This document shows, in pieces, positions 11,286 through 31,853 of a stretch of 37,374 nt of DNA (the stretch's first letter is position 1; each line of letters begins with the position of its first letter). Location: contig JAOACC010000053.1 in NCBI GenBank assembly GCA_026418035.1, forward strand, positions 1 to 37,374, read 5' to 3'. Below the pieces are notes generated by a model. That model saw only the letters and a list, made by a program, of their open reading frames with translations, was not told the DNA's origin and did no database searches. The stretch comes from a bacterium. Lineage in GTDB: Bacteria; DUMJ01. A program made the translations under genes and the position numbers.

Positions 11286-12692
11286 TCACCTCTTTTTCAA
11301 TTCTAGTATTTTATTGTAGGTATCTAGATATATCTTTGCTGAGTTATTCCAAGAGTGGTCTTCTAGCATAATTCTTTTTCGCATTATGTTAAGCCTATCT
11401 TTATCATTATAAAGGTTAATTGCCCTATCTATACTTTCAAGCAGAGCATTATAAGTATAATCAAAAAATACAAAACCTGTCTCATTTTCTTTAACAGTAT
11501 CTTTCAATCCGCCAACGCCTCTAACAACAGGAATTGTCCCATACTTCATAGCTATCATCTGTCCTAAGCCGCATGGTTCAAACCTAGATGGCATCAAAAG
11601 AAAATCGGAGCCCCCATATATCAAATGAGCAAGCCTATTATCGAACTTTAGATTTATTGATATCTTATCTGGATACTGTTCCTTAAATTGGTTCAATACT
11701 TGGTGATAATATTCAGAGCCTGTACCTAATATTATCAAATAAACATCTCTACTCATAAGTTCAGGTATGGCCTGAATAATAATGTCTATACCCTTCTGAT
11801 CCCAGAGCCTACCTATAAAACTTATCACAGGAACATTTTCATCATAGACGAGACCTAACTCACCGAGTAAGAATTTTTTATTCTCCTCTTTCTTCTCTAG
11901 AGAATCGGACGAAAATCTTACCAGAAGATATCTATCTATTTGAGGATTAAATTCTTCTTCATCTATTCCGTTTAGTATACCAACTAAAACATCTGCTCTA
12001 CTTCTTAATAATCCATCTAAGCCACATCCAAATTCTGGAGTCTTTATCTCTTCAGCATAGGTAGGACTAACAGTATTTATCATATCACTATAGACTATAC
12101 CAGACTTCATAATATTAAATTTCCCATAGAACTCTACTCCTTCAGGATTAAACGCAATATCAGGTAGACCAGAATATATAAACATATCTCTATCGCAAAG
12201 GCCTTGATAAGCTAAATTATGTATAGAAAAAAGTGTTCCTACCTGCCTTCTATCCCAGAAATACTTTACATAACCAGGCAATAAAGCGGTATGCCAATCA
12301 TTACAGTGAATTATATCCGGCCCTAAGATCTTAGCTAACTCAAAGCTAGCTCTAGAGAAAAAGATAAAACGTCTAGGGTCATCAGGGAAATTATACAAGG
12401 TTTCCCTCTGAAAGTATGCTCCATTGTCTACTAAGTATAGACTTACATTATCAGAAAGAGAAATTCTTTTTATACTTGCAGTCTCATTACCATATCCAAG
12501 AGGTACATCTAAATCTTTTACAAATTCAGTTACATCATAACTATCTAGACTTACCTGTCTATACATTGGCATTACTACATATACTTCACAACCTAAGCTA
12601 GCAAGAGCTTTGGGTAAAGCTCCGGCAACATCAGCTAATCCTCCAACTTTAACAAATGGATTTACTTCGCTAGCCACAAAAAATACCTTCAT
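11286..12692 (-). CDS. glgA: Glycogen (starch) synthase, GT5
   Basis: A 468-residue GT-B glucosyltransferase that elongates alpha-1,4-glucan from a nucleotide-glucose donor. The N-terminal KVGGLADVAGALPKAL motif binds donor, and the C-terminal domain has ISFIGRLWDQKG, the catalytic-region MPSRFEPCGLGQM and VVRGVGGLKDTV. I place the start at MKVFFVASE (ATG at 12692) rather than the in-frame ATG 24 nt upstream: GGAGGTG lies 7 nt before 12692, and the longer form would overlap the upstream gene and add residues not usual for GlgA. No glgC is present in the window, so the source of ADP-glucose is not shown; use of UDP-glucose is possible. It sits 5 nt downstream of the GH57 branching enzyme gene, which fits a joint role in glycogen synthesis. 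Confidence 0.95.
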   Translation of the reverse strand: MKVFFVASEVNPFVKVGGLADVAGALPKALASLGCEVYVVMPMYRQVSLDSYDVTEFVKDLDVPLGYGNETASIKRISLSDNVSLYLVDNGAYFQRETLYNFPDDPRRFIFFSRASFELAKILGPDIIHCNDWHTALLPGYVKYFWDRRQVGTLFSIHNLAYQGLCDRDMFIYSGLPDIAFNPEGVEFYGKFNIMKSGIVYSDMINTVSPTYAEEIKTPEFGCGLDGLLRSRADVLVGILNGIDEEEFNPQIDRYLLVRFSSDSLEKKEENKKFLLGELGLVYDENVPVISFIGRLWDQKGIDIIIQAIPELMSRDVYLIILGTGSEYYHQVLNQFKEQYPDKISINLKFDNRLAHLIYGGSDFLLMPSRFEPCGLGQMIAMKYGTIPVVRGVGGLKDTVKENETGFVFFDYTYNALLESIDRAINLYNDKDRLNIMRKRIMLEDHSWNNSAKIYLDTYNKILELKKR

Positions 12693-12697
12693 AAAAT

Positions 12698-14263
12698 TCA
12701 CCTCCAGAGAGACCAAAGTTTACGCTCTGGAAATAGAGAATCACGCCTCTCTAGATCTATAACGAATTCCTTGTCCTCGTTAGACAGAGTCTGTTTCTCA
12801 AGTATATCAAAGAGTAATTTTATATTAGCCAAATGTTCATTAAACCTCTTCTCGCCATAATCTCCAGCTGACTTTGTATATATCAGAAATTCCCAATCAG
12901 AACTAGTAAGGAGCAAAAACTCTCTTATTATCTGGTCTGCTATCCTCTCTTGCCAACCAGAAAAATCTCTATTGGAGAAAATTCTATCTATCTTTTTCTC
13001 GATATCATATATCTTCTCCCACATCCATCTTGTGTTTTCGTTATACCAAACTTCATGCCCTCCACCAACACCCCAACTTGATTCTGGGATATCTATAGAC
13101 TCGCTAGGAGGAAAACTAGCAAGGTATTTACTAGGGGTTATTGTTTTTACTAAACTTGAAGAGTTTAGTTTTATAAGAAGTTCTTTTATAAAATCTATTC
13201 CTTCCCACCACCAGTGGCCAAAGAGTTCAGTATCAAATGGAGTTACTATAATAGGATTGTCTATATCAGTGTTTTCTACTGTCCTCTCTAATCTCCAAAC
13301 AAAATGGTTAGAATGCTCCTTTACCTTTTTTAAAGCAAGCTCTGGGTTATATGGTTCTTTAGCTCCTAGGTCAACATTAGGACCAGTAACTCTCCAATAC
13401 TGTAGACCAGAACCTTCCTTACGTTTATGAAATTCCCTATATAGGGCTTCTCCCGGATATCCCAAATCCTTAGACCATATCTGTCCTGAAAGGTCTCCTA
13501 CTCTTCCAAAAGCAGATATATTAGAATCCCTTATATAGTAAGGCTTAAGGACCGAGTAATTCCTAGGAGGCATTTTAGAGTCTATCTCTTTTCCATAAGG
13601 GCTATAAGCCTTTCCACCACGTATAGCATGTTCTTCAAAGAATGAGAATCTATAACCCATTTCAGACATAAAACTCTCAATGCCTGGCTTATAAGCACAT
13701 TCTGGTAGCCACATTCCATAGGGTATAAGACCAGTAATATTAATGTGCTCCTCTTTACCTACTTTTAACTGAAGCCTTATAGATTTCTCATTTCTTAAAA
13801 GAGGCAAGTAGGCATGCGTAGCTGAGGAAGTAATAAGTTCTATTGCCCCATTCTTTGCTAACTGAGAAAGCTTCCTTACTAAATTACCACCAGATTCTTC
13901 AAAATATCTTAACCTCTCTTCTAGAAGATCTCTGTAGTAGAAAGTAAGATTAAATAAATCTGCCTCTTGGGTATGTTTAAAATAATCTCTATCTGCACTT
14001 ATAAGCTCTATCTTTCTAGCTATATACTTTCGAAAGCCATCTATACATTCAGGCATTGTAAGTTGATAGAGAAGAACAGGAGTTATACTGACAGTAATAT
14101 TGGGTATTATTCCATCTTCGTATAGGTCTTCTAACATCTTGACTAAAGGTATATAAGAACCGTACATAACCTCATATAACCATTCCTCCCCAAAGGGCCA
14201 CATACCCTTTCCTTTTACGAAAGGAAGGTGGGTATGAAGCACAAGCATAAAATACCCATTCAA
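12698..14263 (-). CDS. GH57 1,4-alpha-glucan branching enzyme (DUF1957 type)
   Basis: A 521-residue GH57 protein with the DUF1957 C-terminal helical domain, normal length for GH57 branching enzymes. These cut alpha-1,4 chains and rejoin them as alpha-1,6 branches in glycogen. Landmarks are HTHLP (residues 10-14), SSATHAYLPLL, GMWLPECAY with the nucleophile E188, TPFDTELFGHWWWEG with the acid/base D344, and SSWGVGGGHEVWYN. The Trp-rich FDTELFGHWWWEG separates it from the amylase-type GH57 further down the operon. It directly precedes glgA, the expected partner. No GH13 GlgB occurs in the window, so this is probably the cell's branching enzyme. Very little hydrolytic activity is expected, based on the family. 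Confidence 0.92.
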   Translation of the reverse strand: MNGYFMLVLHTHLPFVKGKGMWPFGEEWLYEVMYGSYIPLVKMLEDLYEDGIIPNITVSITPVLLYQLTMPECIDGFRKYIARKIELISADRDYFKHTQEADLFNLTFYYRDLLEERLRYFEESGGNLVRKLSQLAKNGAIELITSSATHAYLPLLRNEKSIRLQLKVGKEEHINITGLIPYGMWLPECAYKPGIESFMSEMGYRFSFFEEHAIRGGKAYSPYGKEIDSKMPPRNYSVLKPYYIRDSNISAFGRVGDLSGQIWSKDLGYPGEALYREFHKRKEGSGLQYWRVTGPNVDLGAKEPYNPELALKKVKEHSNHFVWRLERTVENTDIDNPIIVTPFDTELFGHWWWEGIDFIKELLIKLNSSSLVKTITPSKYLASFPPSESIDIPESSWGVGGGHEVWYNENTRWMWEKIYDIEKKIDRIFSNRDFSGWQERIADQIIREFLLLTSSDWEFLIYTKSAGDYGEKRFNEHLANIKLLFDILEKQTLSNEDKEFVIDLERRDSLFPERKLWSLWR

Positions 14264-26744: not shown

Positions 26745-26786
26745 ATATCACTCCTATCGATATAATATTTTTACCTTCAATTATCT

Positions 26787-26792
26787 ATTATA
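26787..26792 (-). promoter_or_regulatory. -10 box of the Na/Pi cotransporter gene
   Basis: TATAAT on the minus strand, 43 nt before the ATG at 26744. No convincing -35 hexamer is seen at the usual distance. Confidence 0.45.
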
Positions 26793-26843
26793 CTATAAAA
26801 GAAAGATTCTATCCTGTTGAGAAATTAGAGTATCACTTTATTA

Positions 26844-26852
26844 TGTTATAAT
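26844..26852 (+). promoter_or_regulatory. Extended -10 promoter of the tgt-like / 16S methyltransferase / rsmI operon
   Basis: TGTTATAAT, an extended -10 element (TG-n-TATAAT), ends 26 nt before the ATG at 26879. The -35 is weak (TTAGAG at 16 nt). AAGGGG serves as ribosome-binding site. Confidence 0.6.
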
Positions 26853-26878
26853 AAACACAAGAATATTAAGGGGTATCT

Positions 26879-27955
26879 ATGGAAAAGAGTCTAAATCTAG
26901 CAATTAGGCATATAGAGCTACCAGCATTTTTCCCTGATGGTACCAATGGAGTTGTTCGCTCTCTAGATAAAGAGGATCTTCGCAATACAAATACTCAAGG
27001 TATAGTAATAAACACATTACATCTTATGAGAAATCCGGGGATTAGTGTAATTAAAGATCTAGGGGGGATACATAGGTTTATAAACTGGGATGGTATTGTT
27101 CTTACAGACTCTGGGGGATTTCAAGTATTTTCTATGTTAAGAGAGAATGCCAGGTATGGAACAGTGACTGATAACGGCATAATCTTTAAGCCGTCTTCTA
27201 AAGAAAAGATAGAACTTACACCGGAGAGATGTATTCAAGCTCAGTATATATGTGGCTCTGATATAATTATGTGTTTAGACTATTGCACCCATCCAGATGA
27301 TCCAATTGAGATCAACAAGTTATCCGTAGATAACACTATTAAATGGGCTCAAAGATGTAGATACGAGTATAATAGACTTCTAAGTCCATATCCTAAGGAT
27401 ACATATCCCCTTATCTTTGGGATAATACAGGGAGGAAAAGACAAGGAATTAAGGAAAAGGTGTGCTGATTCTCTTATCGAGATAGGATTTGACGGATATG
27501 GGTTTGGAGGTTGGCCCCTAGACAAAAAGGGGAACTTCTTGATAGACATTTTAGAATATACAGCCGAACTGATGCCTGATAATCTTCCCAAATACGCAAT
27601 GGGTATAGGAAAGCCAGAAAATATTGTTATATGTGCAGAACTTGGCTATAACCTCTTTGATTGTGTTGTGCCAACAAGAGAAGCTAGACATGGTAAGTTA
27701 TATGTATTCAATCCAGAATTAGATATAAAAAGCAAAAGCTTCTACACAAATATCTTTATAAAGGAAGAAAAATATACCCGAGATGAAAAGCCCATATCTG
27801 AATATTGTAACTGCTATGCATGTAGAAACTTCTCTAGAGCTTATATACATCATCTTTTTAAGTTGGAAGATTGTTTAGCGTTTAGGTTAGCTACTATTCA
27901 TAACTTATATTTTTATAACGAGCTTATAAGACTTATAAAAGAGAAGAAAGAGTGA
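26879..27955 (+). CDS. TGT-family tRNA-ribosyltransferase, variant base-binding loop
   Basis: A 358-residue member of the tRNA-guanine transglycosylase family, which swaps guanine 34 in GUN anticodon tRNAs for a 7-deazaguanine. Core catalytic residues are present: D77 in LTDSGGFQVFS, D134 in CLDYCTHP, Q184 in GIIQGG, and the nucleophile D261 in LFDCVVPTR. The zinc site is C310, C312, C315 plus a His of YIHHL. The guanine-pocket loop that reads GGLAVGE in standard bacterial Tgt is GGWPLDKKG here (residues 210-218), and GNTYHL is INTLHL. The N-terminal segment is also shortened. So the fold and chemistry look intact but base choice may differ. No queA or queH is near. It overlaps the next gene by GTGA. 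Standard queuosine Tgt remains possible; an archaeosine type is unlikely because there is no PUA domain. Confidence 0.85.
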   Translation: MEKSLNLAIRHIELPAFFPDGTNGVVRSLDKEDLRNTNTQGIVINTLHLMRNPGISVIKDLGGIHRFINWDGIVLTDSGGFQVFSMLRENARYGTVTDNGIIFKPSSKEKIELTPERCIQAQYICGSDIIMCLDYCTHPDDPIEINKLSVDNTIKWAQRCRYEYNRLLSPYPKDTYPLIFGIIQGGKDKELRKRCADSLIEIGFDGYGFGGWPLDKKGNFLIDILEYTAELMPDNLPKYAMGIGKPENIVICAELGYNLFDCVVPTREARHGKLYVFNPELDIKSKSFYTNIFIKEEKYTRDEKPISEYCNCYACRNFSRAYIHHLFKLEDCLAFRLATIHNLYFYNELIRLIKEKKE

Positions 27956-28743
27956 TAGAAGAGATTATAGAAAGAGTAAAGCTTTCTAGTAAATATAAAG
28001 ACATAAACGAAAAAACAATACTAGAGATAATTAATATAGAATTGCCTAAACATAAGAACAAGAAGAGCTTAGTAAAAGCAGTCAAAAACAAACTTCACCA
28101 GATCTATGGAGCATTCTTAAATAGACGAGATATTGAAAAGATTAAAAGCCTACTTTTAGAGTTAAAAAGAGGGGAAAAATTAAAAAAAGAGATAATAAGT
28201 GAGATATTACAATTACATCAATCTACTAGAGAAAGGATAGGTGTGTATGAAGAAATTTATAGAGAAATATTTAAGGTTACTGGAAAACCAAGTTCTATAA
28301 TAGATTTGGCGTGTGGACTTAATCCTTTCTCCATACCCTTTATGAATATAGAGAGTCCTATTTTATACTATGCCTATGATATAGACTCTATATTGATAGA
28401 AACTATAAATGAGTTTTTAAGTATCTTAGATTATCAAAGATTAGCCAAGAGAAAAGATGTGCTCTTTGAAGACATCGAAGACCAAGCAGATATATGCTTT
28501 ATATTTAAGTTTCTCCCTATAGCCGAACAGATAAAAAAAGGACTTTCTCTAAAACTATTAAGTAGAGTTAACAGTGAATTTATAATAGTCTCCTTTCCTC
28601 TAAAGAGTATCAGCGGAAGAGGAAAGGGCATGTTAGAGAATTACAGTAAAATCTTTGAACCAATCCTAGAAGAAAGGCATAAAATCTTAGAGAGGCTTAT
28701 TTTAGAAAATGAAATGTTTTATATACTCATAGAAAGGAGATAA
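27952..28743 (+). CDS. 16S rRNA (guanine-1405-N7)-methyltransferase family protein (ArmA/FmrO-like)
   Basis: A 263-residue SAM-dependent methyltransferase of the FmrO/ArmA/Rmt family, whose known members methylate N7 of G1405 in 16S rRNA and give high-level resistance to 4,6-substituted aminoglycosides. The match runs the full length: KLHQIYG (47-53) in the N-terminal helical rRNA-binding domain, LHQSTRER (88-95), SAM motif DLACGLNP (118-125), AYDID (141-145) with the acidic ribose-binding residue, FIFKFLP (183-189), and SFPLKSISGRGKGM (214-227). The start is GTG, overlapping the upstream stop by 4 nt, and rsmI follows after 2 nt. Base and codon use match the neighbours, with no mobile element in sight, so it looks native. 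Methylation of G1405 is inferred from family; a shifted target is possible. Confidence 0.9.
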   Translation: MIEEIIERVKLSSKYKDINEKTILEIINIELPKHKNKKSLVKAVKNKLHQIYGAFLNRRDIEKIKSLLLELKRGEKLKKEIISEILQLHQSTRERIGVYEEIYREIFKVTGKPSSIIDLACGLNPFSIPFMNIESPILYYAYDIDSILIETINEFLSILDYQRLAKRKDVLFEDIEDQADICFIFKFLPIAEQIKKGLSLKLLSRVNSEFIIVSFPLKSISGRGKGMLENYSKIFEPILEERHKILERLILENEMFYILIERR

Positions 28744-28745
28744 GA

Positions 28746-29609
28746 GTGGGAAAACTTTACGTGGTAGCTACACCTATAGGTAATTTGAAAGATATTACCT
28801 ATAGAGCTGTAGAAGTCTTAAATAACTGTGACTTAATAGCCGCTGAAGATACTAGACACACATCGATACTTCTGAAACATTACAATATAAAGACCAGACT
28901 AATCTCCTATTATAAATATAATGAAGAAGAACGGTCTAGGTTACTTATAAACTACATAACTGAAAAAGGGATGAATATAGCTTTGGTATCTAACGCTGGA
29001 ACACCATGCATATCAGACCCTGGATATAGAATTGTAAAGGATGCAAGAGAAAGGGGAATAGAAGTTATTCCAATACCAGGCCCTTCTGCTGTTATGGCAG
29101 CTTTATCTGTATCTGGAGTACCTATAAATCATTTTCTATTTCTAGGATTTTTACCAAGAAAGGAATTAGAAAGAGAAAAGATTATAAGAGACATAAAGGA
29201 AAAAGGTATAGAGATAGTAGTTTTATATGAATCACCAAAGAGAATAATATCACTTGCTGAACTTATTGCTAAAGAGCTACCCAATGCTACTGTATGTTTC
29301 TTCTGTGAACTTACCAAAGTCTTTGAAAGATCATATATAGGAGATATAAAAACTGTACTAGAAAGACTAAGAAGTGATACTAAGGCTAACCAGGGAGAAT
29401 ATACAGTAATAATATATAACAGAGAAGAACCTTCACAAGAAGGTAGACTTGAAGCAAGTATAGAAGCGCTATTAGTAGATTTTATAGTTAAAGAAAATAT
29501 CACTCTAAAAGAAGCTGTAGAAAAGGTCTCCAAGAGATTTAATTTACCAAAGAATCATGTCTACAGAAAGGCATTAGAACTAAAAGGGTTGCTTCAAGGT
29601 TTTAAATAA
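28746..29609 (+). CDS. rsmI: 16S rRNA (cytidine-1402-2'-O)-methyltransferase
   Basis: A 287-residue RsmI of the tetrapyrrole-methylase fold that 2'-O-methylates C1402 in the decoding centre. It begins GKLYVVATPIGNLKDITYRAVEVL and has AAEDTRHTSILLKHY, LVSNAGTPCISDPGYRIV, PGPSAVMAALSVSGVP, FLGFLPRK and VLYESPKRI, all typical. The C-terminal small helical domain (VKENITLKEAVEKVSKRFNLPKNHVYRKAL) is present. It starts with GTG, 6 nt from AAGGAGA, and is coupled to the preceding methyltransferase gene, whose predicted target G1405 is three nucleotides from C1402. No RsmH, which adds the N4-methyl on C1402, is in the window. Confidence 0.96.
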   Translation: MGKLYVVATPIGNLKDITYRAVEVLNNCDLIAAEDTRHTSILLKHYNIKTRLISYYKYNEEERSRLLINYITEKGMNIALVSNAGTPCISDPGYRIVKDARERGIEVIPIPGPSAVMAALSVSGVPINHFLFLGFLPRKELEREKIIRDIKEKGIEIVVLYESPKRIISLAELIAKELPNATVCFFCELTKVFERSYIGDIKTVLERLRSDTKANQGEYTVIIYNREEPSQEGRLEASIEALLVDFIVKENITLKEAVEKVSKRFNLPKNHVYRKALELKGLLQGFK

Positions 29610-29652: not shown

Positions 29653-30753
29653 ATGGATGCGAATATTATTGAGATTAACATCAATAACCTCAAACATAAT
29701 ATAGAGGTATTAAAGGGGTATATAGGTCCTTATGTAAAGTTTATGGCTGTTGTAAAAGCAGATGCCTATGGGCACGGTCTTAGAGACATAGCTGTACACC
29801 TTGACAATGTAGATGGATTTGGTGTGGCTAATGTAGAAGAAGGAATAACCTTGAGAGAGCTCAATATAAAAAAACCTATTCTTATAATGGGCGATGTATT
29901 CCCGAAAGATATAGAAGGGATTATAAATTATGAGATAACTCCGTCTGTATCAAATCTAGAGATTGCAAGATTAATCTCCAGATATGGAAAAAGAGAAGAC
30001 AGAGAGATACCTATACATATAAAAGTTGATACAGGAATGGGAAGGTTTGGTTTTTTACCTGAAGAGTTACTGAGAGTTATGGATGAAATATTAACACTAG
30101 ATAACTTGAAATTAGAAGGTATATTCAGCCATTTCAGTACTGCAGGAACAGATAAAGAATATGTAGACTTACAATTTAGAAGATTCTTGGAGTTAATATC
30201 TATCTTAGAAAGAAGAAAGGTGTTCTTCTCTATCAGACATATAGCTAATAGCCCGGCAGTACTATTTCATCCTTATACTACTATGGATATGGTAAGGGTA
30301 GGAATTGCCATGTATGGAATTAATCCTATAGGAACAGAAAGTCCTGTAGAGCTACTTCCAGTTATGAGTCTAAAGTCAAAGGTGCTTTCAATCAGAGAGA
30401 TCCCCAATAATTGGTCGGTAGGATATGATAGAATATTTATCTCAGAAAAACCCATGAAGATAGGTATAATTCCTATAGGGTATGGAGATGGTATCCCATT
30501 TCAACTATCAAATAATGGATATGTCTTAGTGAGAGGGAAAAGGGCACCAATCTTAGGACGTATCTGTATGGATTATACAATAATCGACCTAACTAACATC
30601 CCTGAGGCAAAATTAGAAGATGAAGTTGTCATAATAGGAAATCAAGGGGAAAAAAGTATCTCGGCTAATGAGATAGCAAAGAGATGTGGAGAGATTCCAT
30701 ACAGCATAATCACAAACTTAAAAGGAAGAATAAGGAGAAGGCTTATTCAGTAA
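29653..30753 (+). CDS. alr: Alanine racemase
   Basis: A 366-residue fold-type III PLP enzyme that interconverts L- and D-alanine for peptidoglycan. The PLP lysine is K35 in AVVKADAYGHG. The catalytic Tyr from the partner subunit is in the NWSVGYDRIF region. Other landmarks are HIKVDTGMGRFG, EGIFSHFSTA, RHIANSPAVL, MVRVGIAMYGINP, IGYGDGIPF, and RICMDYTIIDLT. The length is normal and there is no export signal. The chosen ATG has no ribosome-binding site but sits 7 nt after a good -10 box; no alternative start with a site was found before the conserved residues. murI and an amidase lie downstream, so cell-wall D-amino-acid genes are grouped. Confidence 0.96.
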   Translation: MDANIIEININNLKHNIEVLKGYIGPYVKFMAVVKADAYGHGLRDIAVHLDNVDGFGVANVEEGITLRELNIKKPILIMGDVFPKDIEGIINYEITPSVSNLEIARLISRYGKREDREIPIHIKVDTGMGRFGFLPEELLRVMDEILTLDNLKLEGIFSHFSTAGTDKEYVDLQFRRFLELISILERRKVFFSIRHIANSPAVLFHPYTTMDMVRVGIAMYGINPIGTESPVELLPVMSLKSKVLSIREIPNNWSVGYDRIFISEKPMKIGIIPIGYGDGIPFQLSNNGYVLVRGKRAPILGRICMDYTIIDLTNIPEAKLEDEVVIIGNQGEKSISANEIAKRCGEIPYSIITNLKGRIRRRLIQ

Positions 30754-31045: not shown

Positions 31046-31510
31046 TTGAAAGAGGAAGAGAAAGTAGTAACGGTCAACAGAAAGGCTTATCATGATTACG
31101 ATATAGAGGAGACACTAGAAGCAGGGATAGTATTATCTGGAACTGAAGTAAAGAGTCTTAGAAGAGGAAGTTGTAATCTTAGGGATAGTTATATACAGAT
31201 AAAAGATGGAGAAGCTTGGATAATAAATATGCACATACCGCCTTATAAAGAAGGTGGTAGATACAATCTAGACCCGGATAGAACAAGAAAGCTTCTCCTT
31301 CATAAAGAAGAGATAGAGTACCTCGCAGGTAGAAGCCAACTGCGGGGATACTCTATAATCCCGTTAAGGGTATATTTTAAAAGAGGGAGAGCTAAACTAG
31401 AGATTGCTCTAGCTAAGGGTAGAAAACTAGTAGATAAAAAGAAATTACTTATAGAAAAAGAAAAGGTAAGAGAGTTAGAGAGAGCTTTAAAGGAATACAA
31501 GGGGGCGTAA
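31046..31510 (+). CDS. smpB: SsrA-binding protein
   Basis: A 154-residue SmpB, which carries tmRNA into stalled ribosomes. The OB-fold core has AYHDYDIEETLEAGIVLSGTEVKSLRRGSCNLRDSYIQI, AWIINMHIPPYKEG and RTRKLLLHKEEIEYL. The basic C-terminal tail (LALAKGRKLVDKKKLLIEKEK plus a final helix), which mimics mRNA downstream of the A site, is split only by normal variation (here IALAKGRKLVDKK). The start is TTG, 2 nt after the rpmE stop, with GGAGAG upstream. Its last codons GGG GCG TAA are also the first 10 nt of the tmRNA gene, an unusual overlap with its own RNA partner. Confidence 0.96.
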   Translation: MKEEEKVVTVNRKAYHDYDIEETLEAGIVLSGTEVKSLRRGSCNLRDSYIQIKDGEAWIINMHIPPYKEGGRYNLDPDRTRKLLLHKEEIEYLAGRSQLRGYSIIPLRVYFKRGRAKLEIALAKGRKLVDKKKLLIEKEKVRELERALKEYKGA

Positions 31511-31853
31511 GGATTCGACGGGGATGGAGAGGTCAAAAGGAGCAGGACGAGTCACCGCAGGCTCGTAAAAATGCGGTAAAAAAATAACTGCTGACAATCA
31601 GTTAGCATTAGCTGCCTAATTAGATAGGCAGAGGTCATTCCTGCCTTAGCCTGCGAGGTAGGAAATGGCCTGACCTTAGCAGGCTGACTCTTCCTCCGGT
31701 GCTCACAGGAGGAAGAGGAAATTAAAGGTGAGCTTACTTCTATAGCCCTGCCTCTGGGGTCCTATAGAAGGAAAAGTAAACAGGGGCTAATCCTGTAGGA
31801 GCCTTTTGGCGTCTCATTCTCGGACGCGGGTTCGATTCCCGCCGCCTCCACCA
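31501..31853 (+). ncRNA. ssrA: tmRNA (10Sa RNA), one-piece, trans-translation
   Basis: The 5' end GGGGGCG (31501-31507) pairs with CGCCTCC (31843-31849) as a 7-bp acceptor stem with one G-U, followed by A and an encoded CCA. The T-arm GCGGGTTCGATTCCCGC precedes it, and the 5' GGATTCGACGGGGA is the usual tmRNA start. The tag frame probably resumes at GGT (31575) and encodes GKKITADNQLALAA, ending TAA at 31617-31619; the ALAA end is the ClpXP-type degron and the GK start resembles Bacillus tags. The exact resume codon is an inference. Several G/C-rich hairpins after the tag (for example AGGCTGACTC and GGAGGAAGAGG segments) are the expected pseudoknots. It overlaps smpB by 10 nt. Confidence 0.97.

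Follow-up and report, generated by a model that had tools for sequence, protein, structure and literature searches.

A chromosomal TGT'-Rmt-RsmI operon, probably for decoding-centre modification, as a likely source of several mobile aminoglycoside-resistance genes

We analyzed a 37,374-nt stretch of a bacterial chromosome (contig JAOACC010000053.1, hereafter the window), in which a gene of the Rmt/FmrO family of 16S rRNA methyltransferases is placed between a gene of the tRNA-guanine transglycosylase (TGT) family and rsmI. The TGT-family subfamily found upstream of Rmt was named TGT'. The three genes are as follows.

26879..27955, + strand: TGT' gene, distinct tRNA-guanine transglycosylase subfamily with GGWPLD replacing GGLAVGE (PF01702, 4.1e-104)
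27952..28743, + strand: rmt-like gene, Rmt/FmrO 16S rRNA (guanine-1405-N7) methyltransferase family (NF000466, PF07091, PDB entries of RmtC and Sgm)
28746..29609, + strand: rsmI, 16S rRNA (cytidine-1402-2'-O)-methyltransferase (TIGR00096, 242.3 bits; the sole rsmI match of the genome)

The rmt open reading frame (ORF; 27952-28743) starts with GTG and encodes 263 aa. Its start overlaps the end of the TGT' gene by 4 nt (gTGA), and a gap of 2 nt separates it from rsmI, as an earlier, sequence-only reading of this DNA had reported. The interval given in that reading, 27952-29609, does not include the TGT' gene, which proved to be the most constant partner; what it called a TGT-like gene encodes a paralogue of TGT whose base pocket is remodelled.

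The window Rmt matched the Pfam family FmrO (PF07091) with 6.7e-40 and 137.6 bits (cut-off 27) over residues 12-258 of 263, and scored 254.7 bits against NCBIfam NF000466, "Rmt family 16S rRNA (guanine(1405)-N(7))-methyltransferase", whose curated cut-off is 250. Full-length matches to RmtC (6e-41) and Sgm (3e-40) were obtained among PDB sequences. The AlphaFold2 model (predicted local distance difference test score, pLDDT, 84.2) consisted of a helical N-terminal domain and a Rossmann methyltransferase domain; its 16 best PDB matches were Sgm, RmtF, RmtC, RmtB, and ArmA, followed by a sharp drop, and the query template modelling (TM) scores to RmtC, Sgm, RmtF, and RmtB were 0.72-0.83. In an alignment of 25 members including RmtC, RmtB2, ArmA, and Sgm, all of the invariant or near-invariant residues were present in the window protein (H49, H89, S91, E94, R95, D118, C121-G122, D143, K186, P216, G226-M227, Y231, and E254), and the C-terminal motif SFPxxSxGGRxKGM was kept. 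These results confirmed that the ORF encodes a full-length member of the G1405-N7 methyltransferase family, in agreement with the ArmA/FmrO-type assignment made earlier. Thus, the window Rmt has the full-length similarity, fold, S-adenosylmethionine-site motifs, and C-terminal motif in common with RmtB, RmtC, RmtD, RmtG, and Sgm. Unlike the characterized members, to which its identity was 28-36%, it is chromosomal and belongs to a conserved operon with TGT' and rsmI.

The TGT' proteins formed a clade of their own (support 100/100), separate from canonical TGTs, and a TGT' hidden Markov model gave 559-620 bits on TGT' versus 285-316 bits on canonical TGTs. In the numbering of Zymomonas TGT, the catalytic aspartates D102 and D280, the guanine-site residues D156, Q203, and G230, and the zinc site C318/C320/C323/H349 were invariant in 19 TGT' sequences, and R286 and R289 were also kept; in Zymomonas TGT, these two arginines contact the anticodon loop. 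All of these features are common to queuosine TGTs (TIGR00430), such as those of Zymomonas and E. coli. Segment 231-235 of TGT, L231-A/S232-V233-x-E235, recognizes the 7-substituent of preQ1. This segment was not matched in TGT': W or Y occupied position 231 and P position 232 in 19 of 19 sequences, and E235 was found in 1 of 19, versus 9 of 9 canonical TGTs. Further changes were V45D, A227G, and I276Y. Since the catalytic residues are kept and the recognition segment is altered, TGT' is expected to have retained guanine exchange, probably for bases carrying another substituent at the 7-position.

A canonical TGT was encoded elsewhere in 8 of the 10 Rmt carriers searched (G001, G002, G036, G258, G289, G079, G351, and G064); it was not found in G000 and G386, both of which are draft assemblies. 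TGT' is thus a second TGT copy in most carriers, associated with Rmt. The queuosine-TGT cut-off of TIGR00430 (306.75 bits) was passed by TGT' of the window (342.6), L003 (324.6), and L058 (316.7), and missed by others of the TGT' proteins scored (window, L003, L058, L015, and L042), namely that of L015 and that accompanying rmtG, so that public Tgt annotation of this paralogue is unreliable. These data bear on the view that TGT' is merely a second transglycosylase for the tRNA wobble base (G34), whose link with Rmt and RsmI reflects only that all three tune decoding, on separate RNA targets. It is consistent with the score of the window protein and the retained R286 and R289, and the theme of the operon may be translation in general. 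However, a canonical TGT is also held by 7 of the 9 searched genomes having TGT' or a TGT-like partner (G000 and G386 being the exceptions), E235 is lost and L231 and A232 are replaced in TGT', and, in a sample of 399 genomes described below, TGT' occurred only alongside Rmt. We consider this view tenable but somewhat doubtful.

The window RsmI is a full member of its family (cut-off of TIGR00096, 167.9 bits) and differs from other RsmI proteins only by its contiguity with rmt and TGT' in carriers. RsmI adjoined the module in 14 of the 17 genomes encoding a full-length Rmt, in either of two gene orders, TGT'-Rmt-RsmI or RsmI-TGT'-Rmt. Genome searches gave a single RsmI match in each of these 14 genomes, namely the operon copy, and no match in the other three. 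Hence, every recognizable RsmI of a carrier is tied to the module, in support of the linkage to rsmI previously noted for this locus.

The phylum of the window genome was represented by three genomes of one genus, and Rmt with the same flanks was present in all three, giving the neighbourhood conservation that the sequence-only reading had proposed to look for. Among 386 genomes sampled across the domain, those outside the genus with strong Rmt matches were G036, G258, G289, and the pair G079/G351, and G064 had a weaker one; weak PF07091 matches in G110, G360, G594, G725, and G978 (18-29 bits) were left out of the counts. Further carriers were G387 (phylum of G289) and G388 (phylum of G036). 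Among 399 genomes of the phylum of L003/G386, a full-length Rmt occurred in 7. TGT' was present in exactly the same 7 and never without Rmt, a match with a chance probability of 3e-15 under the assumption, not fully valid here, of independent genomes. Of the 17 genomes encoding a full-length Rmt, 16 had a TGT-family gene immediately 5' of rmt; when rmt was counted from the nearest start codon, chosen by us, the two genes overlapped by 1-19 nt in 15 of these 16 and were 21 nt apart in one. In the remaining genome, G258, the full-length rmt (L016:6222-7016) was located close behind a small rpsT-like gene.

Pairwise identities of TGT', Rmt, and RsmI were correlated (r 0.79-0.85; 0 of 2000 permutations as high), and nearly all supported groups were common to the Rmt and TGT' trees. 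The window genus grouped with the chromosomal G079/G351 with support of 86/91 in the Rmt tree and 98/96 in the TGT' tree. The window gene accordingly did not fall inside a mobile resistance clade, the placement that would have refuted the earlier proposal. In both trees, G466/G614 of the G386 phylum clustered with G036/G388 of another phylum. The patchy spread of the module together with this grouping suggests that the unit has been transferred horizontally as a whole.

Plasmid-borne resistance genes carry traces of the same arrangement. TGT' was found beside rmtB2, rmtD1, rmtE2 (where it is cut short), and rmtG, and the window TGT' matched the full-length plasmid proteins at 50-53% identity, versus approximately 38% for canonical tgt. 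The rmtG cassette has the order rsmH-TGT'-rmtG-rsmI, in which rsmI is broken after 79 aa; these residues are 47% identical to the window RsmI. In the rmtD1 cassette, TGT' is preceded by a C-terminal RsmH remnant of 31 aa. Both RmtE2 and the truncated TGT' beside it grouped with the chromosomal G418 (97/92 in the Rmt tree and 99/97 in the TGT' tree). The link of rmtG, rsmH, tgt, and rsmI is already known on plasmids: the operon rsmH-tgt-rmtG-rsmI of Klebsiella pKP13f is described in a review (PMC9311965) with reference to Passarelli-Araujo 2019, and a tRNA ribosyltransferase upstream of rmtG was also reported (PMC3904158). The plasmid rmtG operon and the window agree in the TGT' subfamily and in the gene order TGT'-Rmt-RsmI; the plasmid operon differs in being mobile and flanked by insertion sequences (IS), with rsmH added and rsmI cut, whereas the window copy is intact and chromosomal. 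Because rmtB2, rmtD1, rmtE2, and rmtG are accompanied by TGT', and rmtG and rmtD1 also by pieces of rsmH and/or rsmI, excision of several mobile genes from such operons is the most parsimonious explanation. Two other features of the plasmids were observed. A metallophosphoesterase gene lies between TGT' and rmtB2 on p12100-NDM (L040:7146-7955) and was possibly carried from the source chromosome. The rmtD1 cassette, at least the RsmH remnant and TGT', occurs twice on plasmid 6411TF (L041:5998-7845 and 12597-13080), with IS26 nearby.

Here, we propose that TGT'-Rmt-RsmI is a native chromosomal operon for modification of the decoding centre and the source of several captured mobile resistance genes, which we regard as probable. 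The proposal starts from direct observations on the protein families, on the order, overlaps, and co-occurrence of the genes, on the single copy of RsmI, on the changed pocket of TGT', and on the plasmid remnants. In the model, three translationally coupled genes would supply base exchange (TGT'), N7-methylguanosine at position 1405 (m7G1405; Rmt), and 2'-O-methylcytidine at position 1402 (Cm1402; RsmI). Rmt would transfer a methyl group to N7 of G1405 in helix 44 of the 16S rRNA, and RsmI, by homology, would 2'-O-methylate C1402, three nucleotides away. Both enzymes would thus act on one segment of helix 44 of the 30S subunit, most likely as a routine step, and resistance to 4,6-disubstituted deoxystreptamine aminoglycosides would arise incidentally. 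For TGT', the most likely role is guanine exchange within this pathway, the candidates being tRNA G34 or a guanine of the decoding region. The mobile genes rmtB, rmtD, rmtE, and rmtG were probably captured from such operons, chromosome to plasmid being the presumed direction.

Several observations weigh against this proposal. The module is patchy, being present in 7 of 399 genomes in one phylum and in 5 further genera in the domain-wide 386, a count that includes the Rmt-only G258 and the divergent G064. Its apparent passage between phyla would also fit a resistance trait that spreads. G258, the only exception to the pairing, has an Rmt and neither TGT' nor RsmI was found in its genome. The NF000466 margin of the window Rmt over the cut-off is small. 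No 16S rRNA gene was found in the window genome (G000), its two congeners (G001 and G002), or G386, so that a native G1405 is assumed. On the plasmids read, no TGT' was found near rmtC, rmtF, armA, or rmtE1; TGT' is thus not needed for resistance.

Since transfer of the whole unit is suggested, a resistance-driven history has to be reckoned with. In such a history, the module would be an environmental aminoglycoside-resistance operon that spread horizontally through resistance, with Rmt shielding the cell from the drugs of its neighbours and TGT' and RsmI helping the m7G1405 ribosome to decode accurately, as a set that compensates for lost fitness. The patchy distribution, the clustering of G466/G614 with another phylum in both trees, and the resistance conferred by the plasmid copies all fit this account. 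In E. coli, methylated G1405 reportedly hampers the action of RsmF at C1407 and entails fitness and fidelity costs (PMC12406665), which a partner enzyme could offset. On the other hand, the module contains no resistance, transport, or drug-synthesis gene, and it is joined to the only rsmI of the genome and kept in three species of the window genus with the same flanks. We judge a resistance operon to be unlikely, with the native modification operon as the preferred interpretation. Full-length Rmt gave no match in 397 genomes of the G110 phylum (presumably Actinomycetota), searched for producer-type Rmts; the producer enzymes were represented by the Sgm sequence only. The suggestion in the sequence-only reading that the operon represents an ancestral, non-resistance role of the family gained support from the TGT' genes and rsmH and rsmI pieces beside plasmid genes; "ancestral" is plausible and unproven, given the patchy distribution and apparent movement across phyla.

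A second, separate pairing was observed in the bacterial genome G064 (L020:5317-7279), where the gene immediately 5' of that for a distant FmrO-family methyltransferase encodes an archaeosine-type TGT, in addition to the canonical TGT of this genome. The L020 TGT scored 192 bits against TIGR00432, below the cut-off, and the methyltransferase 72 bits against NF000466; the latter is without the C-terminal SFPxxSxGGRxKGM motif. As judged from the sequences, this pairing strengthens a biochemical tie between the two families. It also bears on whether native Rmt proteins methylate another guanine or RNA, with G1405 activity limited to mobile and producer enzymes. The low identity of the window Rmt to characterized enzymes (28-35%) leaves room for this, and loss of the motif in the L020 relative, beside an archaeosine-type TGT, indicates that target drift may exist in the wider family. 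Nevertheless, the window Rmt keeps all of the near-invariant residues and the C-terminal motif and passes a curated equivalog cut-off, and plasmid enzymes are interleaved with chromosomal ones in the tree, as RmtE2 is with G418. A different target for the native enzymes is thus very improbable.

The near-obligate pairing of TGT' with an N7-guanine methyltransferase and a pocket changed at the 7-position of the base raise another reading, in which the base exchanged by TGT' belongs to the 16S decoding centre itself and is the guanine methylated by Rmt or a close neighbour. In one version, TGT' would replace m7G1405, a good leaving group, with another 7-substituted or 7-deaza guanine; in the other, it would restore plain guanine and make G1405 methylation reversible. 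The separate L020 pairing and the finding that 7-methylguanine is a TGT ligand and competitive inhibitor (PMC9299380) point in the same direction. The support is circumstantial, and a literature search on 7-deazaguanine with rRNA and on TGT paralogues gave nothing relevant. We regard exchange in rRNA as quite improbable.

The surroundings of the operon include the following features.

26745..26878: divergent intergenic region of 134 nt, 5' of the operon, presumed promoter region (ORF map and sequence)
29653..30753, + strand: alr, alanine racemase, 43 nt 3' of rsmI (PF01168/PF00842)

The intergenic region is bounded by a sodium/phosphate (Na/Pi) cotransporter gene on the opposite strand in the ORF map. 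The downstream position of alr is kept within the window genus (same order in L001 and L002) and lies outside the cross-phylum module. Among the scanned ORFs of the window, the neighbours had housekeeping functions, and neither a gene for antibiotic synthesis nor a mobile element was recognized, including any transposase, integrase, or IS beside rmt. This agrees with the absence of such genes noted in the first reading, as do the chromosomal setting and the flanks common to three genomes; for antibiotic biosynthesis, the scan speaks for the window and would not exclude a distant cluster elsewhere in the genome. PADLOC gave no defence-system match. The guanine-plus-cytosine (GC) content of the operon stretch was 31-35%, at the low end of the window range (31-41%). 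Translation genes are abundant in the region (rpsB, tsf, smpB, and transfer-messenger RNA, tmRNA), and a mobile Rmt might have landed among them by chance. This idea was refuted, and its probability is negligible: this set of two or three genes, overlapping at their ends, is found repeatedly in unrelated neighbourhoods, with a GC content from 29% to 71%. The smpB and tmRNA genes, in this order, lie at 31046-31853 of the window and overlap by approximately 10 nt; the encoded tag is ADNQLALAA.

No report of the chromosomal cross-phylum module or of the TGT' subfamily was found in the literature searched. Most clinical aminoglycosides are rendered ineffective by G1405 methyltransferases, whose natural home is placed by reviews in the producers. 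TGT' is a paired enzyme annotated as an ordinary Tgt; if its substrate is rRNA, base exchange would be added to the types of modification known for this RNA. The recurrent chromosomal operon offers a concrete candidate source for rmtB, rmtD, rmtE, and rmtG, and a testable non-resistance role for the family.

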